A DNA stretch of 40,876 bases from Heterotrichella gracilis. Taxonomy: Eukaryota; Sar; Xanthophyceae; Tribonematales; Xanthonemataceae. The stretch is from the NCBI GenBank assembly GCA_032358255.1, contig JAULBX010027086.1, forward strand, positions 1-40,876, in the 5' to 3' direction. This document shows, one piece after another, positions 508 to 40,876 of the stretch. How positions within the stretch are numbered: position 1 is the stretch's first letter; each line of letters begins with the position of its first letter. The translations under genes and the position numbers were made by a program. The notes beneath the pieces were generated by a model that worked only from the letters and a program-made list of their open reading frames with translations, made no database searches and had not been told where the DNA came from.

Positions 508-1801
508 GTGCGTGTGGACCGAGGGGAGGAGGAGCTTTCCCCCTACGCCCTGCTGCGGCGCTGGGTGCAGAACGATCCTGAGGCGGATACACACCCTTTC
601 CCATTTGACGTATGTTATTTACCTCCTTTTCCAACCCTGTCCTGCCCACTAGCCATCTCTCAATATTTCCCTGGGATATACACGCCTTCCTGTTCGATTT
701 ATGTTACTCTATCCTCTGCATCCCACCCCTCTATGGCCATCCTTCGATCCTACCTCTATTCTCCTTGCCCTCCTTGCCCTAATCGCCAATCCCTCCTCCC
801 ACGCACAAGTCATGGCATGTGTATGTTATTCACGCATGCCAATCAGCTAGCAGCACGCCTTCCTCAGGCACATGTCTGCATGACAGAACCAGCTGCATTT
901 CCATGGCAGTCCCATTTGCATTTACATGTGCATGGCCATTTGCATTTGCAGGGCCATTTGCATGACGGGGCCAATTGCTGCACCAACGCCCACACCCTTC
1001 CCCTGCGTTCCCGCCCTCTTACTCCTGCAGAACCCTCCCCTTTACCATTCCCCCCAACCCCGCAGGACCTCGCCCCCTTGCAGCTCCCCCCGCCCCTGCT
1101 GGCCATCGATTCCTCGTCATACCCCCCACCCATGGAGCCCCCACTGCTCACACACCACCAGGTGCCGCCCATAGAGGTGCGTGCCGCAGAGGGTTTAGGG
1201 TTAAAGGTCCAGGGTCTAGGGTCTGCTTGCACACCAATAGCAAATAGACCGCCAGATCTGCTCACGCACGCATGCACAGATGATGGGTGCCGTAGCAGGT
1301 CCTGTGTAGACCATGCATACTGCCGGGGAGCTTGGCATGCCCGTAGCTTGCTGGTTTCACATAGGTCGGTCTCTATTTACTTTCTATAAACAAACGGAAA
1401 AGGCAGGCCATAACATGATGGCACCACGTGACCACAAAAATAAAAAATGACAGTTATTGCATTAGTATGCTCCTGACGTGCGCATACCATGAGGTCCAAA
1501 CCACATGAGCTCGCCATGCACCCGCCATGCCCCTACCACCCGCACCACCCCGCAGGGAACCCATATGCTGGTGCCTCCCTTGCACCTACCCCACCTCCCT
1601 TGCAACCCTTAACCCTAAACTCTAAACCCCGCCCCGCAGGCCCTGCAGCAGCACCTGAGTGGACACTGGAGGACGGTGCGCCAGTTCCACCAGATGCAGA
1701 GCGAGCGGCGGGGCCAGCGCTACATCCACCGCCTCAACGCGGTGGTCGAAATGGGGCGCCAGGGGGCCGCGGGTCAGGGTCAGCCACCCAATCAAACGTG
1801 A
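508..1801 (+). CDS. LIN37: LIN37-like MuvB/DREAM subunit, 5'-partial
   Basis: This is the C-terminal part of a probable LIN37 homologue. LIN37 is a core subunit of the MuvB complex, which with E2F/DP, RB-like or MYB proteins controls cell-cycle genes in the nucleus. I read exons 508-609, 1066-1176 and 1640-1801, all phase 0, ending in TGA. Three landmarks occur in the order known for animal LIN37: a short block SPYALLRRWVQNDP (compare LYPICRAWMRNSP), a proline-rich LQLPPPL stretch (compare YKLPPPTPP), and a C-terminal helix with HWRTVRQFHQMQSERR and then RYIHRLNAVVEMGRQ (compare the WKRIRQRWKEAS helix followed by LRYSESMKILREMYERQ). The N-terminus is not in the window or is in unrecognised upstream exons. 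The assignment rests on pattern similarity; a search with the joined 125 residues would settle it. The last exon is followed by decaying copies of itself. Confidence 0.6.
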
Positions 1802-2165
1802 CATTGTGCGGCCGGAATGTGTGTGGGGAGGGTCCCAGTGCAAAATTAATGCTGGCGTGGCTTCACATCAAGGTGGCATTGCGGTGTACATGTACAGGCT
1901 TACAGTGGCGGGAACATCGCTACACCCACTGCCTGGAAGCCGTTGTCGAGCTGGGGCGCCAGGGGGGCGTGGGACAGCGTCAGCCACCCAATCAACCGTG
2001 ACGTGGTGCGGACCGCCTGGGGCCAGAATATGTGTGGGGAGGAACCCAGTGCAGGAACAGCGCTTGGGTGTTTTCTCATCCATGAGGTATATGTGCAGGG
2101 GCGGGGGCACTGCCGGTACAACCGGCGGCGCTCAATGCAGTGATGGGCATGGGGCGCTGGCCGCC
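1719..2165 (+). repeat. Tandem decaying copies of the LIN37 terminal exon
   Basis: The segment from about 1719 (TACATCCACCGCCTCAACGC) through the stop codon and into the 3' flank recurs almost exactly 200 bp later, from 1921 to about 2097. It keeps GGGGCGCCAGGGGG and CAGCCACCCAATCAA. A third, shorter and more diverged copy starts near 2117 (TACAACCGGCGGCGCTCAAT). The copied region crosses the stop codon, so it is genomic duplication rather than extra protein repeats. The order of decay suggests that the first copy is the functional exon. Confidence 0.8.
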
Positions 2166-3397: not shown

Positions 3398-3552
3398 GAT
3401 ATTTCCTGGAAGATATCCTGCACACAATCCGGGAGCAATATACGGAGAATATCCCGGTTTGACCGGGGCTCTCCAGCCATGGCTTCCGAATCTGATTTGC
3501 CACTCTCCGGTCGTTTCTCGGATTTCTCAGCAATATCCGGCGATATTCTCGG
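3398..3552. promoter_or_regulatory. Cluster of ATATC/GATAT motifs upstream of clock gene
   Basis: Six close ATAT-centred motifs fall within 155 bp, about 390-540 bp upstream of the PRR start codon: GATATT at 3398, GATATC at 3412, AATATA near 3437, GAATATCCCGG at 3447, AATATCCGG at 3532 and CGATATTCTCGG at 3541. Several share an ATATCC(S)GG arrangement. In plants, CCA1/LHY-type MYB factors bind AAATATCT-like evening elements in TOC1 promoters. The motifs here share the ATATC core but are not exact evening elements. A regulatory role is inferred. Confidence 0.35.
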
Positions 3553-6900: not shown

Positions 6901-9900
6901 GTGTAGCCGCCCACTGCGTGAGCCTGCCTCCCACACAAATCCACCTGCATGTCTCCCATCCCTCTGCCTTCATGCCCAGATGCACATTTCAGAACCTCAC
7001 ACCATGCCACCTACCCTGGCACCATTTGTGCTGTAAATGACCCCCCTCCTCCCACCCCCCGCAGGCCATGCGGGCATCCAACACCCCCGTCGCCGCTGCC
7101 GCCAAGTTCCCCGAGCCCAAGGCCACCGGCGGCACCCTGGACAGCCAGGCCACCGCCAGCGAGGACACCTTGCTCATCCGCCGCTCCACCCCCTCGGGGA
7201 CCGTGGTCGTCCCCGTGCCCCAGTACGCGGCATCCCAGGACCAGCAGCAGCAGCAGCAGACACACGCCAGCTTGAGCCACAGCGGCCCCATGCAGGGCCA
7301 GGTGCGGTGGCCCCCGAGCGCGCAGCAGGCCGTGGCCCAGCAGCAGCAGCTGCGCATGCAGGCACAGAAGGAGCCGGGCATGGGCGGGGGCCATGGGCCG
7401 CGCCCGCAGCTGCCGCCGCACGTGCTGCAGGCGCTCATGGCGCAGGCGCAGGCACAAGGTGGGGACAGCTGTCAATTTGTGTATCTATCTGATTGATTGT
7501 GTAGATTCGACTTGAGGGTGGTGTGTAAGGGGGCAAGGTGTTTTGCACTGGGTATGCATGCGCGTGTGGCACTGCACCCCAGCCCCCCTTTGAACCCTAG
7601 CGGGCGTGTGAATTGGTCTCTAAGCCCCTGTATTGCACTCTCGTGAGCAACTTCATTTTCATTCCCCTTGTGTGCTGACCCCCCTCCCTCTTGCCTCCCG
7701 CAGCCGGCGCAGGGTCCATGGGCCACTTCATGTCCCCGCACGCGCACCCCCAGAACTTCAACCCCTTCTCCCCCTGGGGCTTCAATGGCATGAACTCGCA
7801 GATGGCCAACCAGATGGCCTCCCAGATGGGCCCTCAGATGTCGGGCGTGAGCTCGCAGGGCAGCGACAACCCCTCGGACCAGTTCCAGCGCGCACTGCAG
7901 AACTACTACCTGCAGCAGGGCACGCAGCAGCTCATCAACGCAGCGGCAATGGTGCGGTAACATCCATAGTAGTAGTGTAAATTATCGCTATGAGCAACAT
8001 AGGGGGGGTGATGTCGGAACAGTTATTGGCATGCACTAAGATGGGGATGCCCAGCACATGCATGGTTACAGCTGCAGCTGCATCTTTGCCTCCACACCCG
8101 CCACTGGCAGCTTCCCACAAATACTTCAACCTGCCCTCCCCAGCATTCCATTAACCCGCTCCTTCTCCTTCCCTGCAGGCGCAGCACCAGCAGCAGCAAC
8201 ACCAGCAGCAGCAGCAGGCCGCCGCAGCAGCTGCTCAGCAGGCACAGCAAGCTCAGCAGCATGCCGAGGCTAACAGGGACCTCCAGCAGCAGCTGGGGGC
8301 CTACATGTACGCCCAGGGGCTGCAGCAGGGCTATGCCAACTTCATTCCGCCCTTTGGAGTGGTGAGTGCAGAGCATGTTGGTTGCTATGGAGGTGCCTTG
8401 CCTGTGTGGTGGTGCATATGTGTGTTGACCGCTGTATGCTGGATTGCTGTCGTGCCCATCCTGCATCCTGCTGCAGCCAGCCGACTCCACCCCTTCCTGT
8501 GTGCAACCCTGCTGACCCTTGCCCTAGGCCCCAAAATACTGAACACACTCTCCCCCCTTTCCAGCAGGCCGGCCAGATGCCCGGGCAGCAGATGCAGGCC
8601 CAGCAGCAGATGCCCTTCCCGCCCCAGTGGCGCCCGCCAAACTCCTGGCCCTCGGCGCAGCTCTCCTCCGAGCCCTCCATCGCCGCACCCACCAACTCCA
8701 AGGCGGTCACCACCGGCACCACCCACCCGCCCCAGCCCAAGGCCAGCAGCAAGCCCTCCACAGGTACCGCCCCCGTGGCGGTGGCGGTGGACGCCGGCGC
8801 CGGCCCCACCACCACCGGTGGCGCCAATGGGAACGGCAGCGGGAGCACGGGGAAGACGCGCAGCGACAAGCTGATCAGCGAGCCCTCGCGCAAGGAACGC
8901 CGCATCCAGGCGCTGCACAAGTTCAAGCAGAAGCGCAAGGTGAGAAGAAAAATAGTATTTTGTGTTTTATTTTGAATAGTAGTTTGGGCCACACCCCAAT
9001 GCATGTGCTGTGCATACTTTCGCAAGGCGCTTCTTGGCTACATCCTACTCCAGCGCACCAACCCAACGCTGCGCCATTGCCCCCCGTTGCATGGCCTGCA
9101 GAACCTGTGTTTCACCAGGAAGAACCCATCAAGAAAACCCTAAACCCTAACTCCTGCCTTCCCCCCCCTGCAGAACCTGTGCTTCACCAAGAAGATCCGC
9201 TACGAGTCGCGCAAGCAGCTGGCGCAGCAGCGGCCTCGCGTGAAGGGCCAGTTTGTGCGCATCAAGCCCTCGGGCGACGACGATGCAGGCACCAGTGGCC
9301 TGGACCTCACCATGACCACCGCCCAGGGCGAGGAGGATGGGACCGGCGGGACCGGCGACTACATGCAGGTGAGGGGTGTAGGTGGTTGATGTTGGTTTGG
9401 GTAGTATACGACCCTGTCCACTGCCCTAAGTGTGCAGCCTTTGGGTGGTTATGGTAGCTGCATTATGAAGTGATGCCCAGGGCAGTGATAACCCTGCCTC
9501 CCCTGCTGCTGGCCAGTCTCGAGTGCTTAAGCATTTTCACCCAGACCAGCCACTGTCATCTTCTGTCGTCTCACCACCCCCCTGTCACCTATTTGCAGAA
9601 CCCTAAACCCTCAACCCTCCATTTGCCTACCCTCACAACCCCAAACCCTAACCCCTCCTGTTTCTACCCCTGCAGGACGAGGAGTTCGACTCTGAGGAGG
9701 ACATTGACACCGAGGAGGAGGAGGGCGACGAGGAGGACGAGGACGAGAACGAGCCCGACACCAAGGGGGCCAGGGGGGGATACGAGGACGAGGACGCAGA
9801 CGTGGTGGACAGCCCCGAGGTGGGTGCAGTTTACTGTAGGATTTGTCTAGCTGGTGCTAGTCAGTGACCCGCCACCTGGTCGGTTGTAGTTACCTTAATA

Positions 9901-10465
9901 CCGCTCTTAAATGATGCATGGCAACCTCAACTGTGTACCCGCTGTAGTTACCTTGATACCGCTCTTGAATGATCCATGGCAACCTCAACTGTGTACCCGC
10001 TGTAGCAATATTACCGTGCGGGCACTGGTTGCAGAGTAGAGTAGTGGTCCTGATGTACCCATGGGGTATGTGCTTATCTCCCTTATTCCTACACCCCCAG
10101 TGCCTCTACTTCGGCCAGAGGAAGGTGCTCCCTGCTCTCCAGAGCAGCAGCAAGCCCCCCACGCTCCCACCAGCACACCGCCTGGCCCCCGGGCCCGCGC
10201 AAACCCTGGCTCAAAGAACCTAAGGAGCTCATGCCCTGTACCGCTGCAGGGCATGGAGGTGGGCGCGCGCGCGTGGCCGCACCGCTGGGCGCACGCGCAG
10301 CAGCAGCAGCAGGCGATGGGCCATGCGGGTGTCCTAGCACAGCTTTGCCTGCAGCCGGAGGTCAGCATGGGTGCCAGGAACGGCGGGTCGGACAGCGGCT
10401 CAAACTCCCCCTGCGACCAGGGGGGGAATGGGTCAGGAGGGGACGGCGCCAGCGCGCCGCTGTAG
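3939..10465 (+). CDS. TOC1-like PRR: TOC1/PRR-type pseudo-response regulator with CCT motif
   Basis: Probable nuclear circadian-clock transcription regulator. Exons read: 3939-4085, 4231-4408, 4700-4827, 5288-5406, 5554-5634, 5761-6335, 6580-6767, 7065-7458, 7704-7951, 8179-8361, 8565-8939, 9174-9368, 9676-9819, then about 10101-10124 and 10250-10465, giving roughly 1,060 residues. The pseudo-receiver spans about residues 24-150. VRVLVVDS opens it, Glu81 in LVLKEHDPP replaces the phospho-acceptor Asp, and [11 protein letters not shown] carries the conserved Lys (about 133). [14 protein letters not shown] closely follows plant TOC1. A long Asn/Gly/Ser and Gln-rich linker follows. The CCT motif (about 853-901) is split by a phase-0 intron between KFKQKRK and [20 protein letters not shown], and ends [10 protein letters not shown]. 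After it comes an acidic Glu/Asp exon and a Gly/Ser tail. The last two or three exon borders are uncertain: an alternative donor at 9823 joined to 10101 in another frame reaches the same stop. Confidence 0.88.
9096..9125 (+). repeat. Intronic copy of the PRR exon-12 acceptor edge
   Basis: CCTGCAGAACCTGTGTTTCA at 9096 repeats the real acceptor and exon start at 9168 onward (CCTGCAGAACCTGTGCTTCA) about 72 bp upstream. AAACCCTAAACCCTAA lies between them. The copy shares roughly 30 bp and then diverges. It has its own CAG acceptor, so it may be a decoy. Confidence 0.8.
9886..10001 (+). repeat. 58-bp tandem duplication in a PRR intron
   Basis: Two head-to-tail units, 9886-9943 and 9944-10001, each begin GTAGTTACCTT and end GTGTACCCGCT, with only about three differences. 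A shorter GTAG start follows at 10002. The duplication is intronic and not coding. Confidence 0.9.
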
Positions 10466-13011: not shown

Positions 13012-16000
13012 ATGGGCAACGCACGGCGCGCACACAGCGCCCATGCGCTCCACACGGCCCTGCACGTCGCAGTCATTGCAGCCTCGCTGTATGTGGCCCA
13101 AGGTATGCTGGTGCACCCCCCATGTCAAGATTTGCCACATGTGTACACATGCCACAGATGGCAACGCACGCCCCCTGTGCCTACTGCCTTCTCCCCGCCA
13201 ACTAGTGCCTAGTGGTGGGAAACGTGGGTTGTCAGCCACTCACCATGCTTGCACATCCTCCCACCACACCTCACATCCCCCACCCTGTCCACGATCAGGC
13301 GTGCCTCCCCCCACTCCTAACACCCCTCCTCTCCCTCTCCCCGACCGCAGCCCACACAGGCGCCCCTGCCCACCTCATCCTCCCCATCAGCGCCGGCGCC
13401 GGCGCCATCACAGTACCCACACCAGCCCAGCAAACAGTGGCCATCGTGGCCGGCACCACCAGCGAGCAAGACCCTCCCCTCCCGGAGTTCCAGCCCTATC
13501 GGATCGACCCCCTGCTGCCCAACAAGGAACGCATGCTGATCCAACACCGGGAGCTTGGCGAGTACGACTGCCCCACAGACTCGTGCCCCTTCCTGCAAGA
13601 CAATGGCGGAGGCAGCTTCAGCTTCCCCCCCACCTTCACCGACGGCGATAACCCCGTGCAAAACCCTGACAATGGCGAAAACTGCGCCAGGGGAGACTAT
13701 GAATCAGGCGGAGGGTGCCTCTATGACACGCAAAATGATCCCATCCACCCCACCCTGGAGGTCTGGAACTGCTTTGACACACAGGTGATGGCCGAGGGCA
13801 TAGTGCACTAGAGTGGGCTGCTAGTGGGCCACTAGGCCCTTACCCAGCATGATCGTAGTTCTCGCAGTTGCTTGCATACTTGGATGTTCCAGCAGTTGAC
13901 AGCCAGGATAGCAGTCAGTCCTGCATGCCTTGCGCAGTTGAGGTCAACAATGATTTAAACAGTGCCAAGACCAGAATGCTTGGCACTGCATGGGAAAGGC
14001 GTACTGCCAGCCTGCTGGATTGCATGTATTATACTCCATACTAGTGGATCAAAAAGTGCTGCCCCTAATCCCCCCCTGTGATTCAAAGCAACGCGTTTTT
14101 TGCAAGAACAGGATACCCAGCCATTTAAATTGGATTAAAATTATAGTTAATTTAAATCCAATTTAAATTAAATTGGATTTAAATTGGATTTAATTCCCCC
14201 GCAACGCAGGCGCCCATCGACTTTGTGGTGCAAGTAATCAACAGCGACGGCTCCTCCACTTGCCTGGGCCCCTTTGACAACATCGGCTTCACCCAGCAGG
14301 TGGTATCACAGCAAGTGACCTGCCAAACCCACACAGACACCTTCAGCGCAAGGGTGTGGTTCTACGAAAAGACCCTCCCCTACAGCAACAAGGGGGCGAT
14401 GGGGCCTGGTGGGGCCTGCGGCCCGCCCAGCGGCGGTGCCAACGACCCCCTGCCTTGCCAGGACTGCTACTATGACGTGCAGTACAACTGCTGTGGTGAG
14501 TGTGGTGAAACCCGGGTTGTGCCACTCCTGTACATGTGCCTGCACTGCACCTGTATGCGTGTCCATTGGCTTTGTGTGAAGCTGAAATGTGCTCTGTCTC
14601 TCTGAATGGCTATGGGGCTATTAATGATCAAGCCCCAGATTTTGTCAACAGCAACTGCCTAGACAATCGCGCGCGCTGACATTGTGTTGTTTCCCAAATG
14701 CAGACCCTGGCTCAGGAGGTGGATTCCCTCCGGAGCCGCCCCCACCAGAAGTCCAGTCACCGCCGCCCCCGTCGCCCCCTAAAGGTGAGTACCCTAAAAC
14801 TCGAACCCTAAACCTTGAACCCCAACCCCACCAGCACATACCCCGCATGCAGCCAGGCCAGGGTTACAACAACCCCTGACAACAATGGTGGGCACTATGC
14901 AACAGGGAACGAAGGGTTCATGCACCTGGCTTTGATTTGTGTACTATTATTATTATCAACTGCACTGGTGCTTAACCCCCTTTTTTTGCGCATCGCAGGT
15001 GGTGGCGGTGGGGATCCCCACGTGGGTGGCTTCGATGGCAGGTACTACGACTTCGATGGTTACAACGGCCAGGTGTTCAATATGATGAGCGAGAAGAGGT
15101 TCCAGGTGAGGAAGGCATGCACACCAAAACCCTACGATCAGAAACCCTAAACCCTGCCCTGCAACGGGGATCCGGAGATGTTCAGCGGGTGGCTCTTGGG
15201 GCCTGGGGATGTGCTGGTGCCCTTGCAGTGCGCAGCATTTGGCCAAGAAACCTGCTAGGGTTCTGCAACTGCGAAACACCCGTCCCTGGAAGGGTACATT
15301 CATCACAGCTCATGTCCTGCCCCAAGTCTAACGCAGTTCTCTCTCCTTTTCCCCCAGGTGAACGCACTGTTTTCCAACCTGGGCAACTCCCTCATCTCCA
15401 ATAACTACATGACCCTCATGGGGTTCAGGTTTGGCAACATGCGCATCGCAGTGGAGGCGGTCGAGGGGAGCAAGCTGAGAGGTAAACCCTAAATCCGAAC
15501 CCTAAACCGCCATGGTATCTAGGTTCAGCAACATGTGCGTGACAGTGGAGGGGAGCAAACTGAGAGGTAGGGCCAGGGTTGAAGATTCCTGCACATGCTG
15601 CATCATCCCAGTACCGTGGCTTCAAAACCCCTCATGAGGGTTCTCCCCCCTGCCTACCACTACCAAAGCCTCTCCAGAAACCCTTTCAGAAACTCCACCA
15701 ATGGGCTTTCCATGTCCACTTAAAATCTTTACTAAGGGTTCTTCACCTCCCGCTGCATTGCATGTCCTGTCAGTCTGAGCGAGCTCAACAACCTGCCCAA
15801 ACCCTTCAAAACCTTACCAAACCCTCGCTAAGGGTTTTCTCCCCATCGGTGCAGTGTACGTCCAGGACCGCGAGCTCACCAACCTGCTCACCATCGACCA
15901 GCCCTTCCGGCTGCGCGGCAGCGACGTGACCCTCACCCTGATGGAGGGCAACGCCACCGGCATCTCCGACGACTCGGGCCGCTACACCGGCTTCCGCCAG

Positions 16001-18589: not shown

Positions 18590-18756
18590 GTAGCCTGGCG
18601 GGCGCCGGCGCCATCATCATCCCAGGTGACGGCGGCTCCTGCGCTGCCGGGCAAGGCGGATAGCACATCAGGGTTTGCGCCACCATCATCCCGGGTGGCG
18701 GCGGCCACATGCCTGGCGAGGCGGGTTAGCATCCCCGCGGCGCGGTTGCGCCATCA
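18590..18756 (-). repeat. Decaying copies of the SF3A2 C-terminal repeat past its stop
   Basis: Downstream of the SF3A2 stop codon (transcript sense is the minus strand), sequence encoding PPPPGMM-type units continues in degraded form: MWPPPPGMMVAQ near 18700 and PPSPGMMMAPAPA near 18610. They match PPPPGMMMAPPPPG at the true C-terminus. Stop codons and shifts separate the units. The last coding exon therefore appears to have been tandemly duplicated into the 3' flank. Confidence 0.75.
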
Positions 18757-21700
18757 TCATCCCGAGGGCCGGGGCTGGTAGTAGCCCGGCGGCGGCGGGG
18801 CCATCATCATCCCCGGCGGCGGCGGCCGCATGCCCGGCGGCTGCATGCCCGGCGGCGGCGGGCGCATCATGGGCGGCTGCGGCATGCCGGGCGGGCCGCC
18901 GTTGCCCATCATGGGAGGTCGCGGCGGGAAGTGCATGGGGGGCGGTGGGGGTCCGGGGCCGGGCCCGAGGTTCGGGCGGGGGGGCAGGTTGGCTGGGGCG
19001 GGTGGGGGTGGTGGCAGGCCTGCGGTGGGGGGTGGGGCTGTGTGGGCGACATGGTTACAAGGCAGGGGGAGAGGACAGTGACAGTGGGGGAAGCGGCCTA
19101 CAAACAAACAAACAGAAAGGCGTTCCCAAGCGGCGTACTGTGAGCGCCAAGAAGATATATATGTTATTAAAAAGGGGGTGGCATGCAACCTTACAGCAGT
19201 GCTGAGCACATGTGGAGCGGTTTTGCAGCTCCTGCTTAGTAGTGCTCAGACCTGTGTAGGGGTTTTTGTTGCGCCTGCATAGGGTTTTTGTGTCGCTGTC
19301 TCACCTGAGACATGTTTAGGGTTTATGTAGTGCCTTTTCAGGGTTTTTGTGTCGCTGCTTCTCACCTGAGACCTGCAGCATCTGTGGCGGGGGTGCCGGG
19401 GGCTTGTCGCTGTGGGGCTTGAAGGGGACTTGCAGGGAGTACACCTTGGCGTCGGGATCCCAGTGCGTGAAGAACCGCTCCTCGTTTTTCTCCACCTCAA
19501 GGTTGGGAACCTGAAGGGGTGGGGAGGGGAGGGCATGAACTAAGGAAGGCAACAGGTGCTGCTGAGAGTTTTTGCAGCCCTGAAACCCCTTATCGCACCC
19601 CATACAAAACCCCACAGAAGTGTAATGCACAAACCTAGAAGGCAAAGGCCTACCTAGAGTTCCACAGCCAACCAAAACCCTAGCACACATACCTTGAACG
19701 CAATGACCTCGTAGGGTTCTGCAGCAAACAGCAGGTACTGGTACGCCTTGTCCCATGCCTCCTTGCGCTGCTCATAAGCTGACATGAAGCGGTACCGGGG
19801 TTTCTCCCCCTCCTCAATCTCAGGGTACTCAACCTGGGTGGCGAGATTTAGGGTTTAGGGTTTATAGGGTTTAGAGGTGCAGAGGTGTACTCAATCTAGG
19901 GGTGAAATTAGGTCACCACGGTAGGGTTGAGGCATAGGGTTGGGAAGTCAGAGGGTCGAGGTCAACACAGAAGGTAGGATTGCCACACAGAAGGGTGGAA
20001 GGTTGATGGTCTAGGGTTTAAACATGAAACAGCAAATATGCACAAATCCGCTTGCCCACGGGGCGCGCTGTAGGGTACAGGCTTTTGGGTACTGATTGGT
20101 CTCTTTGTAACTAGACCACTTGAATTTGGGATTTCATGTTCAAGGTCCAGGGTGTAGGGTTTAGGACGCACCTGGAACAGCAGTGAGCGCTGCTCCGCCT
20201 CTGCCTCATACTGCTTGGGCACCTTGTAGCTGGACTACCCAATTTAGGGTTACAGGGTTTTAGGTCTAGGGTGTAGGGTGTAGGGCGCACCTGGAACAGC
20301 AGTGAGCGCTGCTTCGCCCCTGCTTCATACTGCTTGGTCACCTTGTAGCTGGACTACCCAATTTAGGGTTACAGGGTTTTAGGTCTAGGGTTTAGGATTT
20401 GGGGCGCACCTGGAACAGCAGTGAGCGCTGCTCCGCCTCTGCATCATACTGCTTGGTCACCTTGTACCCCGGCCGACCAATGCGCACTGCAGAGCATGGG
20501 AGCCAAAAGGATTAGGGTTTAGGGTACACGTTCAGGAGTCGCACCCTCACAATACTGCACCAACTGTTGGAGATTCAACTGTTGGAGATCTTCCTATACA
20601 GGGTGACTGACCGCCGCGATTTGTACATACATGTGCCCCCAGGCTTGCCCTTTCCTTTCATTATCTTCTACACGTTACATTGCTGATCACCAAACCGCCA
20701 CCAACACCACGACCACCAGCATAACCCTCTCCTGGCTTATTACCACCCCCGTCACCCATCGCCAATCATCTTTAGAGGCGATTCACCACCACCACCACTA
20801 CCACCCACCCACCCACCACCACCCGTTCCCCCACCTGTTCTCCTGGCAGTCCCCCTGATCTTGGGTGCAGGCTGGATGGGCTTCTCTGCAGCTTCACGGG
20901 CAGCGCGCTTGGCAAGGTTCTGCTGGTGGCGCTTACCCTACAGCAAGGGTGTTAGGGTTTAGGGTACTCCTTGAGCCGCAAATCCGCGCTTACCCTACAG
21001 CCAGATGGTTGGGGTCTAGAGGTGAGGGTACTTTTACAAACCCGCAAACCCGTGAAAAGGACTAGGATTATGATAGCACCCCCCTTTGCATGATGCAGGG
21101 TCTTAGGGCCAGATAACCCCTCTCGTTATCGTGCGATGTTCCCTAGTTCGCGCCGCTCAGTGTTGCCTTTCCATCCCATGTTTCTAGGGTTTCAGGGTTC
21201 TGGTGGTTCCCCACATTGTTGTGCAACGTCAAGCACAGCCGAAACTCGCACTAGCCCAGGGTCCTAGGGTTCCATGGTTTAGGGTTTTCGAACGTATGAG
21301 ATTTAGGGTTTTCTGCGTGTGCGCCAGGTAGTTCCCCTCGCTGTTTAGGGTTTAGGGCTTAGGGTTTACGGTTCTCCCAAAATCCCCACCTGCGTGTGTG
21401 CCAGATAATTCCCCTCGTTGTTGTGCAGCGTCAGGCACAGCCGGCACTCGTACTGCCCCAGGTGGTTGCGCATGAAGTAGGGGTCCTTGGTGAGGTCGAT
21501 GGTCTCCAGCGCAAGGCGGCGCAGGCGCTCGCGGCGGTCGATTGCCTGGGGAAGGGTGTGCGTGCTTTCAGCAACCCTGGTTACTTGATGGCAGATCAAG
21601 GGGGTTACAGGAGGGGCGGGTGGGTGGGGTATGGCAGGGGCAGGAGGGGTGGGGTGGGTGGGGTGTGCAGTGGGAGCGATATGGGTGTTGTTGGAGGGTG

Positions 21701-25562: not shown

Positions 25563-28500
25563 CTAGATCCGCTTCACAATCTGCACGATATCCTCATCCT
25601 GCAGAATGTGGTCCTTGCCCACCTTCTGAGGCTTGTGCTTCACACTGGTTCCCCACACCAGGGCATACTTGAACTGCTTGGCCATGGTCTTGTGGATGCG
25701 GTTGCAGAAGTCCTCCACAGAGGTGCGCTGGGCGGGCAGCACCACGGGCTCGTTGTAGTCGGGCAGCTTACCCTGCGCAAGGGTTTGGGGATTGGGTAAG
25801 GGTTTTGGATCACAGGAATGTTGTGCTTGGGCAGCTTGCCCTTTGGAAGGGTTTGGGCTTTGGCATTGGGGTTTGGGGTTACTGGATGCGGATGCAACAG
25901 TCCTCAACAGCGTGCGTATGGGGTGCAGCATCACAGGCACGACCCTGGACCCCATGCAACACACTCTGCACCCCAAACCCTCGCACCCAGCTTGGGCTTA
26001 ATGTACATCAGCACCAGGTCCAGGTACTCCCATATCATCTCAATGCACCCTCAAAGTAATCCCATAGACCCTAGACCCTAAACCCTTCACCCTGCAGCAC
26101 CCACATTTGGCTTGGTGTACACCCGCACCAGGTCCAGGTACTCCCCCATCATCTCGATGTACCCATCCAGGTTCCACCTAGACCTAAACCCTAAACCCTA
26201 AAACAGGCAACATCCTCAAAAACTGAACCCTAAAAACCCCTATCAGCACCCACCTTTGGCTTGGTGTACACCCGCACCAGGTCCAGGTACTCCCACATCA
26301 CCTCGATGCACCCATCCAGGTTCCACTCCTGGTAAGCGCACACCGAACTGCAACTAGCTCATCACATCTACCTTGCGCTTGATATTACACCTCACCTACA
26401 CCCTACACCCTAATCGTGAAACCCCCCACCCTACACTCCAATTGTAAACCCTACAGCACCCACCTTTGGCTTGGTGTACACCCGCACCAGGTCCAGGTAC
26501 TCCCACATCATCTCAATGCACCCATCCAGGTTCCACTCCTGGTAGGCGCACACCGGGCAGTAGTGCGGCAGCTTGGCCATCACATTCAGCTCCTCGAGTG
26601 TGATCTGGTCGATCTTGTTGATGACGTAGATGCAGGGGACATACACGCGGGACCCCTCAATGACGTCCACCAGGTCGTCGATCTCGTAGTCGCCCTTCAT
26701 GTGGATGTCGGCGTTGTGGATGCGGTACTCGGAGCACACCGCCTTGATGGCTGCAGGGGGTGGGGAGGAAGGGTAAGTGTGTGTGTTTTGGGGGATCTGA
26801 ATACATAAGGGCGGGGCGTTCAAGGGGGCATTAAGCTTCAATAAATTAGCGTTGGTATTTAAGATCACAGCCCTACTCCCAACGCACCATCCAAGTCCAT
26901 CGTTGGTTCAGTGATAATCTCAACCCTACACCCTAAACCTTAAACCCACCGTCCAAGTCCATCTTAGGCTCGGTGATGGTGGTGGTGAAGTTGATGCCCC
27001 CCTTGTCCTTCTTCTTGAACGAGATGTTGGGCGGCTCCTTGTTGAGCCGGATACCAAAGCCCTCCAGCTCGTGTTCGATCAGGCGTTTGTGCGTGATTGG
27101 CTTGAGGCAGTCCAGCACGATCAGGATGAGGTTGCAGGTGCGTGCCGTGGAGATGACCTGGAAAAGAGGACAGGGAGAGTTTTAGAAACTGAGTCACAAC
27201 ACTTAGCACTTTACAGTGGACAAACTCGTAAAACCCTAAGCCCTAAGGCCTCCAGCTCTGCAGCGCATGGTACTCTCGTTAATTACATGCATTCCTGCAA
27301 TACCGCGAAATTAACAGACAGGTGTAACACAACAGTTGCACAGGCGGCGCCTACTAGTTCAGTCCTGGCACTGGTCATAGCATTCGTTGATCTTGTGCGA
27401 TCTGAGGTCCTGCTGGATCAGGTCAGCCCATGTGGCCCAGGGTTAACCTACCCTTTTCGCCCCCTGCACCCTTATGAACATCGTGCATTGGGAATTCGAT
27501 CATAAGTTGAAGCCAACCTAATTTAGTGATTTCTAAAGGTTGCATATATATCTGATAGAGGGTGACACCTTTACCTTATTTATGCCTTCATGCGCACCCG
27601 CCCACCCCGCACCATTTCAATGTGGTAGAAATGATCGTTATAAAATGGTGATATGCACACCCCAACTTGATACAACCAACCCATGCATGCAGCGCTGCCG
27701 GTTGAAACTCCCTCCCCACCCGCACCCACCTGCCGCCCACGCCCCTTGCCATCCTTGGCCCCCTCAATAATCCCAGGCAAATCCAGCAGCTGGATTTTGG
27801 CCCCCCGGTACCGGATCACCCCCGGGATGCACGTCAATGTGGTGAATTCGTAGGCCGCCACCTCCGAAAATGTGCCCGTCAGCTTTGTCAGCAGCGTGGA
27901 TTTGCCCACTGAGGGGAAGCCCACCAGCCCCACCCGCGCATCGCCAACCTTGTTCACATCGAAACCTGTGGGAGGGGACGGCACCCAGTCAGGATACATC
28001 TGCGGTGTTGAAAACATGACCAAATTTTGCATCTGGTGTTACTGGGTGTTGCTCTGCCCATGGGTTGTGATTCTGCTGGTTTTGCTGGGCTTACGAGCCG
28101 GCGGCAAATGCGCACATGTCACATTAGTGGTGCAGGTGTGCAGAGCTGGGTGCGGCACAAAGACGTGGGGGAAAATCTCACACACAGAGAGAGATGGGCG
28201 CTCTGTTGAGGAGACCCATGAGCTGGCATGCGCACTGTAAGCCAGGGACGCCCTCGGCCTGTGGACTGTTGGTACCGCCGCCAATCATGTGCACTGTCCT
28301 GGCGGCAGCACCCTCAATGAATGCTGAGGCACGGTGTATAACCCCCACCGCAGTTTGGTGGACCCACAGGCCGCTCCCCAAGCGGCGCAGCGGCTCTCCA
28401 ATCCCCGGGAGGCTTACATGCACCTATGCAATAGTGTGCGTGTGCTACCGCAGGCTGTGCGATGCAGCTGTGCGTCCTTTGCCACTGCTGGTGGCGTTTA

Positions 28501-29362
28501 GGTGTTTAGGGTTTAAGGTGGACCTTCTCCCCTTGCAGCGCCCCCACCGCACCCCCACCACCAACGCCAACGCCAACAACTTCGGGATTTACAGCTCATG
28601 ATCTAGGGTATAAATTTACTACCTTCTCCCTTGCAGCCCCCGACCACCACCGCCACCTCCCGCAGGCTCTATAGTTAAGGGTGTACAATACAGGATTATG
28701 GTTTAGGGTTTCCTACCTTCTCCCCTTGCAGCGCCACCGCCGCCACCGCCACCGCTCGCAGGCTCCAGCAGCTCTCGTCGCAGCTTGGCAAGCTTGGCCT
28801 GGGGAAGGGCAGGTAGGTTTTTAGTCGCATGAGTGTTCCAGCAATGCAGGGAGAACAAACGTCAGACCTACAAGCCTTGCGCCAGCAATAATGGCAACGG
28901 CAGCGGCGCTAATGGCATGAAAACCCAGATGTGCACATAAATGGGTGTGGTTGAGCGGCTTTTCAGCAAGACCTTATGGAACCAATGGCTGGGCGTTGTG
29001 TGCGCAGGGTTGTGGGAGGGTTTTGCGGTTGAGGATGTTGTTGCCTCACCTTGAGCATGCCCAAGTGTCCACTGGTGGCCTTGTTCTTCTGCGTCCTGGC
29101 CATCTGCGGGGATGCAAGGGGAAAACGCTCACTAAACTCGATGCAGAAACCCAATTTAAGTAAAAAATACTTCGAAATTTGCACCCAGTGACAGGGTTGT
29201 GTGGACTGTCCGCGATGAAGCGATGCTTTTGGCATGTCGGCTGCATATGCATGCATATGGCGCTGGCCATGCTCCTCAGCGGGCGACTGCTGCATAAGAC
29301 CATCTTGAAGGCTGCGACCTTACCTCATCTTCAATCTCCTTGATCTTTTGCATTGACGTCAT
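25563..29362 (-). CDS. DRG1: DRG1-type developmentally regulated GTP-binding protein
   Basis: Cytosolic Obg/DRG-family GTPase, in other eukaryotes associated with translating ribosomes through a DFRP partner. Exons in transcript order: 29362-29324, 29103-29050, 28798-28717, 27965-27730, 27157-26950, 26750-26464 and 25772-25563, giving 371 residues, the usual length. The N-terminus [31 protein letters not shown] and [13 protein letters not shown] is diagnostic of DRG1, followed by a Gly stretch. G1 is GFPSVGKST (about 74-82), the G2 region YEFTTLT, G3 DLPGI and G4 NKIDQ. At G5 the usual SA is CA ([13 protein letters not shown]). The C-terminal TGS domain runs from [20 protein letters not shown] to [20 protein letters not shown]. 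The first exon is only 13 codons, but its ATG and the phases fit the family. Introns carry many copies of exon edges. Confidence 0.95.
25829..25862 (-). repeat. Intronic copy of the DRG1 exon-7 acceptor edge
   Basis: GGGCAGCTTGCCCTTTGGAA followed by GGGTTTGGG (plus strand, from 25830) repeats the real acceptor edge GGGCAGCTTACCCTGCGCAA and GGGTTTGGGG (25761-25790), about 69 bp away in the intron. Here too a copy lies upstream in transcript order. Confidence 0.8.
25984..26345 (-). repeat. Three intronic copies of the DRG1 exon-6 donor edge
   Basis: The 3' end of exon 6 with its donor begins on the plus strand at 26454 (CAGCACCCACCTTTGGCTTG, then GTACACCCGCACCAGGTCCA). It recurs at 26244-26345, 26095-26178 and 25984-26052. 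The nearest copy is almost identical for about 100 bp. The farthest has lost the donor (CACCCAGCTTGGGCTTAATG). CCCTAAACCCTAAA stretches separate the copies. Divergence increases with distance from the true exon. Confidence 0.95.
26889..26945 (-). repeat. Intronic copy of the DRG1 exon-5 donor edge
   Basis: ACCATCCAAGTCCATCGTTG then GTTCAGTGATAATC (from 26886) repeats the true exon end ACCGTCCAAGTCCATCTTAG then GCTCGGTGATGGTG (from 26948). AACCCTACACCCTAAACC lies between. The period is about 62 bp. Confidence 0.85.
28521..28675 (-). repeat. Two intronic copies of the DRG1 exon-3 donor half
   Basis: The Gly-coding end of exon 3 and its donor (plus strand ACCTTCTCCCCTTGCAGCGC, 28715 onward) recurs as ACCTTCTCCCTTGCAGCCCC at 28621 and ACCTTCTCCCCTTGCAGCGC at 28522, a period of about 95-100 bp. 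TTTAGGGTTT lies next to the real copy and near the farther one. The copies retain a GTGGACC or GTAGTA sequence at the donor position. Confidence 0.85.
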
Positions 29363-29952: not shown

Positions 29953-32900
29953 ATGGCCCCACCTGCTAGGTTAGATAGGTTGAAGAGCATCGGCGAGATG
30001 AACCGCACTGAGAGCCAGCGAGATATCGATGCTATACTGCGGGCGAAGATCTTCGTGGAAGGAGGGGCCTCGGGCTGGTCGAGCGTGTTCACGTTATGCA
30101 ACTCATGCATAGGGGCTGGCGTGTTGTCCTTCCCTTTCGCCTTCAAGTGTGCAGGTAGGGGACCGTGTACTGTCTCGAAACTCTAGTCATCTGAGTGTGG
30201 ACGTGATTTCACAATAACACCCGGTTGGGTTGACACCATTGCACGCACTTCCCTGTTCTCACATGGGGTTGGAGTGGCTGACGTCAGACCATTTGCATAC
30301 CTGGACAATACCTGCCACACTTGGTGAACGTAAGGACCGTTATGACTTTCATCTTTCAAACCCATGTCGCGCCTTCTGCGTTTACCGCTGGTGCGTTGCC
30401 TGCCAATGCCATGAAAGGGTAGGGTTTTGTATGGAGGGTCGAGAGCTTTTCACCCCACTCCAGGTCTCGTCGGAGGCTTCCTGCTATGCTTAACGGTGGG
30501 CTCGACCATGGGCTTCACGCTGTACCTCCTGACGAGGTTCACTGAGTACTACCGGGCAAACACCTTCCAAGGCCTGGTGGGTGGTGCAGCCATATGCATG
30601 CATTACAACAATGGGTATTTTATTTGACTGACTTTTAATTTAGTTATTTATATATATATATAATACCACATCTGAACCTGCCTGAGGAGGAGCTTGCAGC
30701 ATGTTTTGAGCTGTGTTATCGCACCATATTGCTGCGTGTGCCACGCATACTTCTGTGGTGCATAACCGTTTGTGACACAAGGCTTGTGTCACCCTCTCTA
30801 GGTTCGGAAGGCGCTGGGCAAGAAAACCGCCATGTGCACCGCCACCATACTGGCCCTCTACCTCTTTGGAGGATGCGTGGCCTACCTCGTGATCATAGGT
30901 AGGGCTGCAGACGGCCCACTGCTGTTGAAAAACACCAACACTAACACAATTCTGGGGTCTTTGAGTGCTTGCTGTACACTCAACTCGCCAACTACCTGCA
31001 CTGCACCGTCCAGTAGACTCCAAACCGCACCGCAGTCCTGGATTTCTCATTGAGCACTGTGGCACGTTCAACTCGCAGTGTCTGCATTCTGTCCCCGCAC
31101 CCAAGTCACCCTAAACCCTACCAACAAATCCTAACCTTGCGTCCCCCTCACCCCAGGTGACACCTTCTCCTCGCTAGGGCACCAGCTCTTTGGACCAGGG
31201 TAAGTCATCCTCTGCTCAGCAAACTGCATTTTATTTAATGTCGTATTTTATTAAATAAGACCAAACATTGAAACAGCGCCGGGGTGGACCTGCTTGGCGC
31301 CGCTTGTGTGCATTGCTAACTCCGCATCTGGGTGTGTCGCTGAAATATGCCTGACCAAGTAGGTAACCGGCTGCTTCGCAACTGGACAAAACAAGCCAAG
31401 GCAGGCTTTGCCATTAGAATGGTCCTGTACCGAGCACGGCCCTGTATCGAGCACTGAAGCGCACCTCTTGTCTTGCAACCACAGATGGTGGGCCGACAGG
31501 AGCGTGGTGGTGTCTGTGCTGGGCACATTCTGCGTGCTGCCGCTGTGCTACCCCAAGCGACTGGGAGCCCTCTCACGTGAGTCCGCACTTGAATTGATCC
31601 CCTGCGGCGGGAACCCACGAGCATCACACCCACGTGCCACCCGATGCACGCATGAGCAGTACCCATCGTGCGCATGCGATGGCTGTGCATTCAACTCCTA
31701 GCCTGACCACAGAAACATGGGCATGGGCATTGGTTGATTGGCCATGGCATTCTGTGTGCTGCCGCTGTGCTACCCCAAGCGACTGGGAGCCCTGTCATGT
31801 GAGTCCTTGCAGCTTGCGTGATTTATAAATGTCTAGAAATAATCAAGTACCCTCCTTATCTCAAGTATGAGGGCATTGGTTGAGGAAGAGACAGAGTGTA
31901 GTCCATGCAGCTTGCGTCCCCCGTTCGCGTGCACCCTCCAAGCCATCAAATACATGACACAGGCTACGCCATGCACTCATGAGCATTGCCTGATCATCAC
32001 GCTCATGCAAACCCTAACCTGGCCACAGAAACATGGGCATGGGTTGATTGGCCACGGCATTCTGGGTGCTGTGCCGCTGCATCAATCGCAGCGAGCACCC
32101 ACTGTGGTTTGCTTCCTGCGCACCTCAACCTTCATGGTCATCCGCAGCTACCATCTTTGCCATCCAACCTATAAACCCTACTCGCCTGCCCCGCAGTGTT
32201 CAGTGCGCTAGCGGTGATTGGCTTCCTTACACCTCCACCATAGTGCTCGTATGCGGCTTCATCGTCTTTGCCGACCCTAAACCCTGATCTCAACCCTAGT
32301 TCCAACCCGATCGCCTGCGCCGCAGTGTTCAGCGCACTGGCTGTGATCGGCTTCCTATACACTTCAACCATAGTGCTCATACGCGGCTTCATACTCTTTG
32401 CCGACCGGGGGCCGGAGCGCATGGAGCCCGTGCGCCTGTTTGATTGGTCCTGGAACCTGCTGAGCGCCATCCCCATCATGGTGTTTGGATTCCAGTGCCA
32501 CACAAATGTAGGTGGCTTGCAGGGGGCAAAGGAGGGGGGATGGACCCATGGGACTCATTGCTTGGGCATCACCACCCCTGTGTGCCACTTGTTTCCCCGT
32601 GTCAATTGGTCTTGTAACCTGTTGAGCGCCAGCGCCAACATGGTGTTTGGGTTCCAATGCCACACAAATGTAGGTGCACTGTGCAGTGGGATAGATGGGG
32701 GTGGGACATGCGCATTGCATGGATTGTACCATGTTCCTCGCATGCTAACCATAAGGGGCCTGAGCACCCTACTGGCAACCCCCAGGATTTGGAGGAACGC
32801 CACCCAAGGAAGAAAGAACGAAAGTAAAGGAACCCACACTGTTTCTGTCGCCCCTCACCACTCACCCACAATGATCTTCACCCTCGTCTCCCCACCCCCC

Positions 32901-35187
32901 ACCCCCTCACCCCCCACCCCTGCAGGCTGTGAACATCTACCACCAGCTTGAGCCCACCCCACCCACCCACCACCCCACCACCCACCATCCCTGCAGGTGG
33001 TCACCATCTATCGCGAGCTTGAGCCCACCCGCACTACCCACATCATACCACAACACCCCCACCCACCCACCCCCCACCCCTGCAGGTGGTCACCATCTAC
33101 CCCACATCACACCACACCACACCCCCCACACCCACACACCACCCCACACACCACACACACCCCCACAGGTGGTCACCATTTACCACGAGCTTGAGCCCAC
33201 CCCCTCCTTCAGCAGCGGCCTGGCGGGCACCCGTCAGCAGGTGCGGCTACACATCACAGACGCGCCAACCACGCCCGCGCACCACATGCCCAGGAAGCTG
33301 ATGGCCATGAAGAGCATTGTCGCGCTCGCAGGTACGTGATGGGGGTGGAGTGTGGGTGGTGGGTGGTGGGGTGTGGGTGGGTGAATGTACTGTGGAGAGG
33401 GTAAACGTTACAGTGGTGGCTGCTTAGGGGAAGGGTATAGGTTTCGGGGTATGCACAGGTGCACATACACATGATGAAGGCGTGTACCATGCTGGCGCAC
33501 CACATGCCCAGGTAGCTGTTTACCATGAATTGCATTGTCACGCCGGCAAGTAAGTGTCGCGGGTGAGGGGTGGGTTGGCGTGTATTTCCATGAAGGGGTT
33601 GCAAACGGTTTCCATGCTGCTGCCGTCGTTCATCGCAGTCAGATCATGGATTGTAATGACACAAAGAACAAAATTACAATATAATTGCAATCACAATCTA
33701 CATTTTGTTTGTTTGTGTCCAACGATACCCTGCTCCCTCTGGCCACAGTCAGCATCAGCATGGCTGGCTACCAGGCGGTGGGCAGCGCGGGCTACCTTGC
33801 CTTCCCCACGGAGGTGCAGAGCAATGTGCTCAACACATTTTCGAGCGACGACCCATTCATCCAGGTGCGTGCGCATGGGGGTGCCGGGTGAGCAGGTGTA
33901 TTACCTTGTCTTTCAAATACCTTTTTGCGCAAAATTGGCAATTCGTGGATGTACATATCTCGTGGGCCATTCGCACCTAGACAAACGCGGCCTACCCGTG
34001 ACGTGCATCATGATTCAGACATTCCCGTAATCTGAAAACCCTAAGCCCTAAACACCTACCCCCTACCCCCTTTACCTGCAGATTGCTCGCGCCATTATCG
34101 GCGTGGTGGTGATCACCCACTACCCCATCAACCACCACCCTGCCCGGTCAGCCATCGAGGACCTGCTCAGGTTCTTCCTGGGATGGGATAGTGTTTCGAA
34201 GGGATTCAGATATGCACAGACCACCATCTTTTTTGCACTCACCCTGGTGGTGGCGATAGTGGTGGCCGACCTTGGGAAGGTAATTTACATGCTGGGGGGT
34301 TGGATTTTTTTTTTAAATGAGCAACATGCATTCCTGCAGTACGCCAGATGAGCATGCACAACCCCTGCAATTTGCACAGCATGTCAACGGTATTACCAAG
34401 GGTAATAAGATAATAATAGGACTATTATTATCTTATTCCCCTTGGTATTTCTCCGCCAACACGCACACACATACATGTGCCCTATATTATCGGCAACACA
34501 GCAGCAGGAGGATTGTAATATTCTCACATCCTTTCCACACTCCAAACCTCAGAACCGGGTGCTCCCCTTGGCCTGCTGCACAGCCGCAACCATCGCAACC
34601 CCAGATACTCCTCACCCATTCACCCACCCTCCCACCACCTACCAGGTTCTCCACGTGATTGGCGGCACAGCAGCCGCCCTGCTCACCTTTGCCATTCCCG
34701 GGCTCCTGCTCATCAACAGGCATTGAGAGCAGTGCTCAAAGTTGGGAGGCAGGGACTGTCCACTTTACCCACCTCCACTCCCCCTTGTCCTCCCCCACTC
34801 CAACCACTTTCCACCATCCCACAAGCTTCCCACTCACCCATTTACTTCACCCCCCAGGTGCTCCACGTGATTGGCGGCACAGCAGCCGCCCTGCTCACCT
34901 TTGGCATCCCCGGCCTCCTGCTCATCAACAGCGTGACAGACATACGGCTGTGGCTCAAAACAGGGGAGGCAGCCACCGACCTCACCCAGGACCTGCTCCA
35001 AGGGGAGGAAGGGGGGGAGGGGGTGCAAGGGGAGGAGGAGGCGGCGGTGGCGACCCCCCCGCCGGGGCCCCCGAGGAACGTGTTCCCCTTTTACAGCAAC
35101 AGCTGGGCGCTGGGTTCGGTGCTGCTGACCATCAGCATGGCCATTTTCGTGCTCACCATCTACACGTCATTCGTGCCGGTGCACTAG
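29953..35187 (+). CDS. AAAP/SLC38-type amino acid transporter
   Basis: Multi-pass membrane permease of 511 residues, amino acid/auxin permease family; substrate unknown. Exons: 29953-30154, 30464-30576, 30802-30898, 31157-31199, 31485-31576, 32326-32507, 33169-33331, 33749-33864, 34082-34279 and 34858-35187; all phases agree. The N-terminus carries the family hallmark SVFTLCNSCIGAGVLSFPFA. Further segments include FLLCLTVGSTMGFTLYLLTR, MCTATILALYLFGGCVAYLV, SVVVSVLGTFCVLPLCYPKR, VFGFQCHTN followed by VVTIYHELEPT, VALAVSISMAGYQAVGSAGY, FFALTLVVAIVVADLGK with VLHVIGGTAAALLTFGIPGL, and a last segment SVLLTISMAIFVLTIYTSFV. About eleven hydrophobic segments are expected. ATG 29953 is the nearest in-frame ATG consistent with family N-termini. 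At least six exon edges are duplicated in its introns, more than in any neighbour. Confidence 0.9.
31702..32085 (+). repeat. Intronic copies of transporter exon-5 donor edge
   Basis: CATTCTGTGTGCTGCCGCTG through GGGAGCCCTGTCATGTGAGT at 31748-31806 repeats the exon-5 end and donor (31526-31582) with few changes. A more decayed copy begins at 32057 (CATTCTGGGTGCTGTGCCGC). Both are preceded by the shared intronic stretch CCACAGAAACATGGGCATGG. Confidence 0.9.
32187..32282 (+). repeat. Intronic copy of transporter exon-6 acceptor edge
   Basis: CCCGCAGTGTTCAGTGCGCT through to TCATCGTCTTTGCCGACC (32190-32276) repeats the real acceptor and the first 75 bp of exon 6, which start at 32322. A CAG acceptor is retained, but it lacks part of the original reading frame (CTTCCTTACACC). 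CCCTAAACCCTGA joins the copy to the real exon. Confidence 0.9.
32602..32675 (+). repeat. Intronic copy of transporter exon-6 donor edge
   Basis: TCAATTGGTCTTGTAACCTG through CCAATGCCACACAAATGTAG (32602-32672) repeats the exon-6 end GATTGGTCCTGGAACCTGCT to CCAGTGCCACACAAATGTAG, including the GTAGGTG donor, about 165 bp downstream. Confidence 0.9.
32915..33118 (+). repeat. Three intronic copies of transporter exon-7 acceptor edge
   Basis: The real exon 7 begins at 33169 after CCCCCACAG with GTGGTCACCATTTACCACGA. Upstream lie CCCCTGCAGGCTGTGAACAT (from 32917), CCCTGCAGGTGGTCACCATC (32990) and CCCCTGCAGGTGGTCACCAT (33077). The first two continue into GAGCTTGAGCCCACC-like sequence; the third ends after about 20 bp. 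Spacing is 73-92 bp. All three keep an AG and could be recognised as acceptors. Confidence 0.95.
33488..33552 (+). repeat. Intronic copy of transporter exon-7 donor edge
   Basis: GCGCACCACATGCCCAGGTA then TGCATTGTCACGCCGGCAAG (from 33497) repeats the exon-7 end GCGCACCACATGCCCAGGAA and AGCATTGTCGCGCTCGCAGG (33278-33332), about 220 bp downstream. A GTAAGT donor follows the copy. Confidence 0.85.
34395..34446. repeat. Long near-perfect hairpin in the last transporter intron
   Basis: A 25-bp arm (34395-34419, ACCAAGGG then TAATAAGATAATAATAG) is followed, after GA, by its inverse (34422-34446) with a single mismatch. It is AT-rich in a GC-rich setting. It could be a small foldback element or a structured RNA segment. 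Confidence 0.85.
34632..34726 (+). repeat. Copy of transporter exon-10 start, possible alternative last exon
   Basis: From 34646, GTTCTCCACGTGATTGGCGG to CTCCTGCTCATCAACAG repeats the first 75 bp of the true last exon (34858 onward) with about five differences, after a CTACCAG acceptor. It then reads GGCATTGA, a stop in frame. Use of this copy would give a transporter lacking its final cytoplasmic loop and membrane segment. Whether it is used is unknown. Confidence 0.85.
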
Positions 35188-40547: not shown

Positions 40548-40876
40548 TGGTGAGCTACGTATGTCAAACCATTGTATGCAATGTGTGAAGTACGTGCGCT
40601 ATCACGCGGTGTGACGAGCTTCGAGCACGTATACTGTGGTTTGTTCCACTGGTTGCTGCCTGGCCTGTTTGTGTTTAAAAAATTTCAACATTGCAAGTTG
40701 CTGGTTGCCAGGTTGGTGTGCGCCGTTTGCATGTGGGGGCGTTTTGAACATTTCTTTCTTCTTGGTGCTAGCGTTGTGCAGCTACTGTAGCGCGACAATT
40801 GTCACAACAGATGAGGTGATTGCCAGATCAGGTGATCACACAGGAAATAGCACTACCAATGTCCATCCCAACAACG
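40548..40876. other. 3' flank of F-box copy 2
   Basis: No feature recognised. The window ends here. Confidence 0.5.

Follow-up and report, generated by a model that had tools for sequence, protein, structure and literature searches.

Exon edges and splice sites copied into neighbouring introns of Heterotrichella gracilis: likely scars of DNA-break repair

The window analyzed here is the whole of a 40,876-nucleotide (nt) stretch of the xanthophyte Heterotrichella gracilis (contig JAULBX010027086.1 of assembly GCA_032358255.1). It carries seven multi-exon genes, and we describe the direct copies of exon edges, splice sites included, that lie in their introns. Five of these genes are supported by Pfam: a response regulator with a CCT motif (PRR), SF3A2, Cpn10, a DRG-type GTPase (DRG) and an amino-acid transporter (AVT). 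The vWD-like gene has a Pfam match below the cut-off, and the LIN37-like peptide has no Pfam match, so that its name is unsupported. The exons are predicted, having been curated from a gene finder and the sequence, and provide 97 edges (45 donor edges, 45 acceptor edges and 7 gene ends).

A copy was counted when an edge scored at least 38; the reverse complement of the same introns and the intron of another edge served as controls. Twenty-three copies were found on 16 of the 97 edges, in six of the seven genes (DRG 7, AVT 7, SF3A2 6, and one each in the LIN37-like, PRR and vWD-like genes), and both controls gave none. At this threshold, the at least 18 sets spread over all seven genes of the original prediction become 16 edges and 23 copies in six genes. 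The distance between edge and copy, predicted to be mostly 35-210 bp, was wider (62-473 nt). The features are given below with the identity of each copy to the real edge, and rest on this curated-edge test unless stated otherwise.

1704..1801, plus strand: real end of the last exon, LIN37-like gene
1904..2001, plus strand: copy of that end beyond the stop codon, 82%
9167..9198, plus strand: real acceptor edge of the CCT exon, response-regulator gene (also Pfam)
9095..9126, plus strand: copy of that acceptor edge, 91%, followed by a telomere-like spacer
15427..15484, plus strand: real donor edge, vWD-like gene
15521..15569, plus strand: copy of that donor edge, 72%, preceded by a telomere-like spacer
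20402..20466, minus strand: real donor edge, SF3A2 (also Pfam)
20283..20347, minus strand: copy 1 of donor edge 20402..20466, 95%
20164..20228, minus strand: copy 2 of donor edge 20402..20466, 95%
21390..21462, minus strand: real donor edge, SF3A2, given as the stretch spanned by its two copies
21313..21345, minus strand: copy of donor edge 21390..21462, 88%
21207..21260, minus strand: copy of donor edge 21390..21462, 83%
18771..18839, minus strand: low-complexity coding stretch of the SF3A2 last exon, with weak copies at 18580-18636 and 18679-18718
26456..26555, minus strand: real donor edge, DRG (also Pfam)
26246..26345, minus strand: copy 1 of donor edge 26456..26555, 97%
26097..26177, minus strand: copy 2 of donor edge 26456..26555, 95%
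25983..26050, minus strand: copy 3 of donor edge 26456..26555, 90%
28709..28765, minus strand: real donor edge, DRG, with copies at 28615-28669 (86%) and 28522-28559 (90%)
26943..26977, minus strand: real donor edge, DRG, with a weak copy at 26881-26915 (83%)
25693..25752, minus strand: stretch near the DRG acceptor at 25772, with a weak copy at 25883-25941 (79%)
25743-25808 and 25811-25876: lower-identity pair near the same DRG acceptor at 25772
31526..31584, plus strand: real donor edge, amino-acid transporter (also Pfam)
31748..31806, plus strand: copy of donor edge 31526..31584, 95%
32320..32406, plus strand: real acceptor edge, transporter, with a copy at 32191-32276 (86%)
32443..32514, plus strand: real donor edge, transporter, with a copy at 32605-32676 (89%)
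33166..33203, plus strand: real acceptor edge, transporter, with copies at 32994-33030 (92%) and 32923-32960 (84%)
33238..33338, plus strand: real donor edge, transporter, with a copy at 33456-33556 (75%)
34854..34931, plus strand: real acceptor edge of the transporter last exon, with a copy at 34642-34719 (95%)

Copies past the stop codon had been proposed for two genes; the one in the LIN37-like gene is clear, whereas the two in SF3A2 are weak and involve a Pro/Gly-rich stretch. Divergence had been expected to grow with distance from the real exon, and does so in four of the six sets with several copies; the other two are a tie (SF3A2 20410, 95% for both copies) and a reversal (DRG 28717, 86% for the near copy and 90% for the far one). 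The Cpn10 gene has no edge copy at a score of at least 38, and a three-unit array lies in the intron preceding its last exon (24024-24150). A 58-nt tandem duplication (95%) at 9885-10005 is located fully within an intron of the response-regulator gene and is one of two purely non-coding pairs with at least 90% identity. An AT-rich run of TTTAAATTGGATTTAAATT-like repeat units is found at 14123-14195, in an intron of the vWD-like gene.

Beyond the window, we searched 28 further 10-kb loci from the 68.5-Mb, 903-contig assembly, giving a total of 320,876 bases; some tests were done on the window and 24 loci only, others on all 29 sequences. Gene models were predicted by a gene finder trained on this genome (603 introns in the window and 24 loci, 697 in the 29 sequences), and introns as called represent 62% of the sequence. 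Since the gene finder at times takes copies for exons, the edge counts are conservative. Self-comparison within 1.5 kb yielded 126 direct and 3 inverted pairs over the 29 sequences (score of at least 45), and 106 direct and 2 inverted pairs in the window and 24 loci against none in locally shuffled sequence (score of at least 50). The shuffles and controls reject chance or composition as the source of the pairs. Pairs are about twice as dense in the window (27 in 41 kb) as in the 28 loci (99 in 280 kb), and 21 of the 28 sampled loci contain at least one direct pair. Local, direct and dense copying of exon edges with their splice sites, and an edge similarity above that of controls, thus stood as originally predicted, in the window and in most sampled loci.

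The copies are strongly tied to exon edges. Among the 126 pairs, 75 held exactly one exon edge (with at least 20 coding bases, as required for all edge statistics) and had the copy on the intron side; the mean was 21.5 (maximum 38 in 400 shifts) when pairs were moved randomly within their own locus against unchanged gene models. Without the window, 61 of 99 pairs held an edge in the expected order, compared with a mean of 17.2 (maximum 33 in 1000 shifts). The other 51 pairs comprised 6 in the wrong order, 9 non-coding, 4 coding and 32 of other kinds. Intron-only duplications are scarce: the 9 pairs fully outside coding sequence compare with a mean of 37 (minimum 24 in 400 shifts), and the 7 that remain without the window with a mean of 29.5 (minimum 15). 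In the window and 24 loci, exon ends (up to 60 nt, score of at least 36) matched the intron on their own side, downstream for 26 of 417 donor edges and upstream for 24 of 429 acceptor edges. A copy can thus be detected in the adjoining intron for about one in every 16 to 18 exon edges, and none of the four tests gave a match in the controls (reverse complement and wrong intron). In long exons, 8 of 133 and 7 of 142 edges were matched, compared with 2 of 133 and 0 of 142 exon middles.

Introns carrying a copy (score of at least 52) are longer, with medians of 343 and 254 nt with and without a copy on the donor side (15 of 417 edges carrying one), and of 500 and 261 nt on the acceptor side (12 of 429 edges), in line with the predicted lengthening. 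The route that had been put forward, intron gain by tandem genomic duplication, is a different matter. In that model, doubling of an exonic segment containing AGGT creates an intron whose start matches the downstream exon and whose end matches the upstream exon, whereas the copies seen here sit within introns that already exist, and a copied upstream exon end retains its own donor. Matches on the side required by the model were found at just 4 of 429 (exon 3' end in the upstream intron) and 6 of 417 (exon 5' end in the downstream intron) edges, these ten being counted in bulk rather than inspected individually, and we rejected this origin. The observation behind the original prediction was confirmed, and its mechanism, a continuing intron gain through tandem duplication, was only partly supported.

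For tests of the joints, we retained the nearest copy of each edge with a spacer of at least 12 nt, that is 60 events in 17 of the 29 sequences. The distance from the real edge to this copy was 70-230 nt in 52 of them and looks two-peaked, with 20 events at 70-130 nt, 8 at 130-190 nt and 24 at 190-230 nt; the second peak spans 190-222 nt, and the distribution gave p about 1e-4 for unimodal fits and p 0.003 for a uniform fit. Part of the second peak corresponds to two steps, since an intermediate copy lies hidden in 8 of the 25 events near 200 nt. Arrays with a period of about 100-130 nt, which include exon edges and intron parts and are unlike the two-copy events, were also seen (L015:8601-8932, L012:5472-5777 and L021:8853-9177).

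The extent of homology on either side of the splice site distinguishes these events from ordinary duplications. In edge pairs of at least 90% identity, the median reach of homology is 48 nt on the exon side and 8 nt on the intron side, and the intron overhang is at most 20 nt in 18 of 19 pairs. Counting one event per edge, 16 of 17 such events (9 loci) end within 20 nt of the splice site, with overhangs of 2, 3, 7, 8, 18 and 18 nt at donors and of 5, 5, 5, 7, 7, 8, 9, 9, 10, 10 and 34 nt at acceptors. Random duplications with faster intron decay, simulated for donor edges at rates that we chose, ended this close in 4-9% of cases (4% at similar identity), and their median overhangs were 78 nt in the intron and 84 nt in the exon. 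Beyond the overhang, 25 of 32 events with at least 85% identity fell within the 95th percentile of unrelated-flank controls. As these copies drift and yet remain at least 90% alike, a copied intron part would be expected to show; its absence would then belong to the event itself rather than to later decay. The sharp boundary at the splice site thus holds for young events. The longer overhangs of older pairs are partly due to alignments that chain through several copies.

Slippage or unequal exchange could in principle duplicate random segments in tandem, those at exon edges staying recognisable through exon conservation. Such an origin is suggested by the direct orientation and closeness of the pairs, by the regular arrays that take in intron parts, and by the long intron overhang of pairs below 80% identity. 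It would give homology reaching equally far into intron and exon, which is not what the young pairs have, and it does not account for a number of intron-only pairs four times too low or for spacers between edge and copy that are non-homologous (median 97 nt in the 60 events) and often telomere-like. We consider it improbable, and the simple tandem duplication first envisaged was not borne out.

The telomere of this genome is (TTTAGGG)n, with 101 exact five-repeat matches; among the matches listed, many lie at contig ends and others inside contigs. There are 182 occurrences of the heptamer CCCTAAA/TTTAGGG, 404 of its rotation AAACCCT and 365 of its rotation AACCCTA, compared with a median of 39 for permuted heptamers, and 171 of the 182 exact heptamers lie within introns as called. 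A telomeric 6-mer was found within 40 nt of the exon-side end of the copy, that is at the joint, in 33 of 60 events, compared with 62 of 492 intron middles (Fisher p 8e-13) and with 19 of 60 on the far, intron side of the copy (p 0.016). The enrichment at the joint is carried by spacers shorter than 90 nt (18 of 27 at the joint, 6 of 27 on the far flank). Whole spacers contained the motif in 35 of 60 events; intron pieces matched for length and locus averaged 22.1 (maximum 33 in 200 draws). Two non-telomeric spacers of the window were searched genome-wide: one is unique, and the sole match of the other lies at the flank of another copy within that intron, which for these two weakens the idea that the fillers are dispersed repeats. 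In acceptor spacers the motif is C-sense in 17 and G-sense in 2 of 32 cases, compared with 10 and 8 of 28 in donor spacers; this bias could reflect selection against a stray AG near acceptors, or the use of CTAAAC as a branch point. In introns with and without copies taken together, telomere-like motifs are also more frequent 8-48 nt from splice sites (107 and 103 of 492) than in the middles (62 of 492), and the sense C-strand motif peaks 25-50 nt upstream of acceptors.

These joints bear on the possibility that exon-edge copies entered introns that were already there, originating perhaps in fragments of RNA or DNA with ends near splice sites, and that copies with a full acceptor or donor context were purged as spliceable. 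Insertion agrees with two features, a short overhang at the copy and an undisturbed context at the real site, and in long spacers the motif flanks the copy on both sides (15 and 13 of 33). Against it stand a motif beside the real splice site that exceeds background (24 of 60 against 210 of 984, p 0.002), which it does not predict, and the rarity of copied exon middles; we regard it as unlikely.

The copies are probably mostly dead relics of exons that are themselves conserved. In 17 sets with at least three copies, copies carried 24, 27 and 36 unique changes at first, second and third codon positions, and real exons 3, 1 and 4; after removal of 4 doubtful sets, whose "real" segment is a simple repeat or one of the copies, the counts were 19, 18 and 29 against 0, 0 and 4. 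Pairwise differences in 48 pairs of at least 80% identity were distributed as 63, 44 and 166, a stronger third-position excess that also includes synonymous changes of the real exon. This excess, the slight one in the copies and the fact that the SF3A2 copies remain in frame are what would be expected if copies served as alternative exons or splice sites, selection confining the homology to exon and splice site. The free change of positions 1 and 2 in copies, set against near-invariance in real exons, and the frameshifting indels of older copies (11 in the 48 pairs, none in the 17 of at least 90% identity) make a function for the copies very unlikely, the slight third-position excess notwithstanding. 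None of the 60 events reaches 98% identity, while 3 lie at 95-98%, 6 at 92-95% and 9 at 89-92%. This means that the process has slowed or that young copies are hidden by the assembly, which could collapse them, so that the "continuing" process of the original prediction is unproven. That the pairs are themselves an assembly artefact, as the lack of near-identical copies might hint at, is hardly credible given copies that differ by 3-29% with indels, occur at three quarters of the sampled loci and keep a constant orientation and order.

We consider it likely that the copies are scars of DNA breaks repaired beside splice sites, in which the exon edge was copied and the ends were joined, often with telomeric filler. 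A break would occur near a splice site, on its intron side. One broken end would be extended by copying the adjoining exon edge from a sister template (copy-and-join repair), and both ends would then be joined with filler, often a telomeric repeat added by telomerase or captured. The product would read, in order, real edge, filler, non-functional edge copy and remaining intron, and intron lengthening would be its sole effect. With the copy placed within the intron, the reading frame is preserved; only breaks on the intron side spare the frame, which accounts for the presence of the splice site in the copies. They would decay afterwards, and repeated rounds would yield arrays.

Several points weigh against this reading. 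Frame survival does not account for breaks lying so close to exons. The insertion, the direction of copying and the break itself are proposed on the basis of one genome; the gene models are our own, and pairs within one array are not independent of each other. The overhang stops within 20 nt in only 35 of 60 events overall and in 31 of 50 of at least 80% identity, lower-identity pairs and arrays run further into the intron (median 46 nt below 80%), and 7 of 32 events stay similar beyond the overhang where 1.6 were expected. In spacers of at least 90 nt the joint is no richer in telomeric motif than the far flank (15 against 13 of 33), whole spacers are just moderately richer, and 25 of 60 have no telomeric 6-mer. 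Short overhangs occur both with and without telomeric filler (p 0.86), so that the two may be independent features; a telomeric tract was for this reason rejected as the cause of the short overhang. The slight third-position excess in copies (36 of 87, p 0.07; 29 of 66, p 0.048 without the doubtful sets) sits uneasily with dead relics.

The odd part of repair at splice sites is the closeness of the breaks to the exon, together with the lack of intron-only events. The placement might be linked to transcription or splicing, for instance through an R-loop boundary or spliceosome binding at exon ends. A fuller version, which we hold only tentatively and think doubtful, is that transcription or splicing places the breaks at exon-intron boundaries, e.g., through R-loops over exons that end at the spliceosome, and that copy-and-join repair with telomerase filler heals them. 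If so, introns would be lengthened by a process guided by splice sites, and telomeric C-strand filler would also supply acceptors with branch-point and pyrimidine-like sequence. The origin of intron sequence and the growth of introns is an old question with few dated events. With copies of various ages and legible joints, one could count and date the lengthening of introns by repair, and test directly how breaks and splice sites are linked.

Two other features were seen in the window. At 36420-40550 there are two adjacent long open frames, the first matching F-box-like and, weakly, LRR models and the second similar by look; self-comparison listed no local direct pair of score at least 50 there. 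The first 70-90 nt of the contig (window 1-81) recur at 39 other places among the matches listed (27 at a contig start or end, 8 internal and 4 unplaced), and form a dispersed repeat that often coincides with a break in the assembly.

Plant tandem duplications that arise through paired nicks or patch repair give short copies in tandem, separated by filler. No report of exon-edge copies with telomeric joints was found in the open-access literature at the level of titles and abstract openings, nor anything similar in the portions covered of PMC8226300, PMC10487979 and PMC3296678. In the main text of a review of intron gain, as far as covered, repair and tandem duplication are separate routes and the word "telomere" is absent (PMC3443670). 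Vertebrate repair-mediated duplications (RDs) are short local copies near their source, for which synthesis-dependent repair was proposed; exons or splice sites are included in some of them, and neutral evolution was reported for two copied exons (PMC2671141). Our copies resemble them in being short, closely linked and joined through filler or non-homologous sequence. An exon edge is held by 75 of 126 pairs here, compared with 4 of 824 RD donors that were partial exon/intron, but the rates are not comparable, as the RD search took repeats as acceptors; the portion covered names no telomeric filler (PMC2671141). In mammals, telomerase inserts interstitial telomeric repeats at breaks, and a target-site duplication accompanies 6 of the 130 rodent cases and 4 of the 25 primate ones (PMC2246262). 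Telomeric repeats at repair joints and some duplications are common to both systems, and the host telomere motif stands at over half of our joints. Duplication is a minority outcome there, with no exon tie found in the part covered (PMC2246262), whereas motif and edge duplication often coincide in H. gracilis. The nearest single example is the potato RdRp gene, in which a duplication across an exon-intron boundary was reported as intron gain (PMC4974935): a local, boundary-crossing duplication with copied splice sites. In H. gracilis, no new intron is evident, and the copies lie within existing introns, carrying the same splice site as the real edge.

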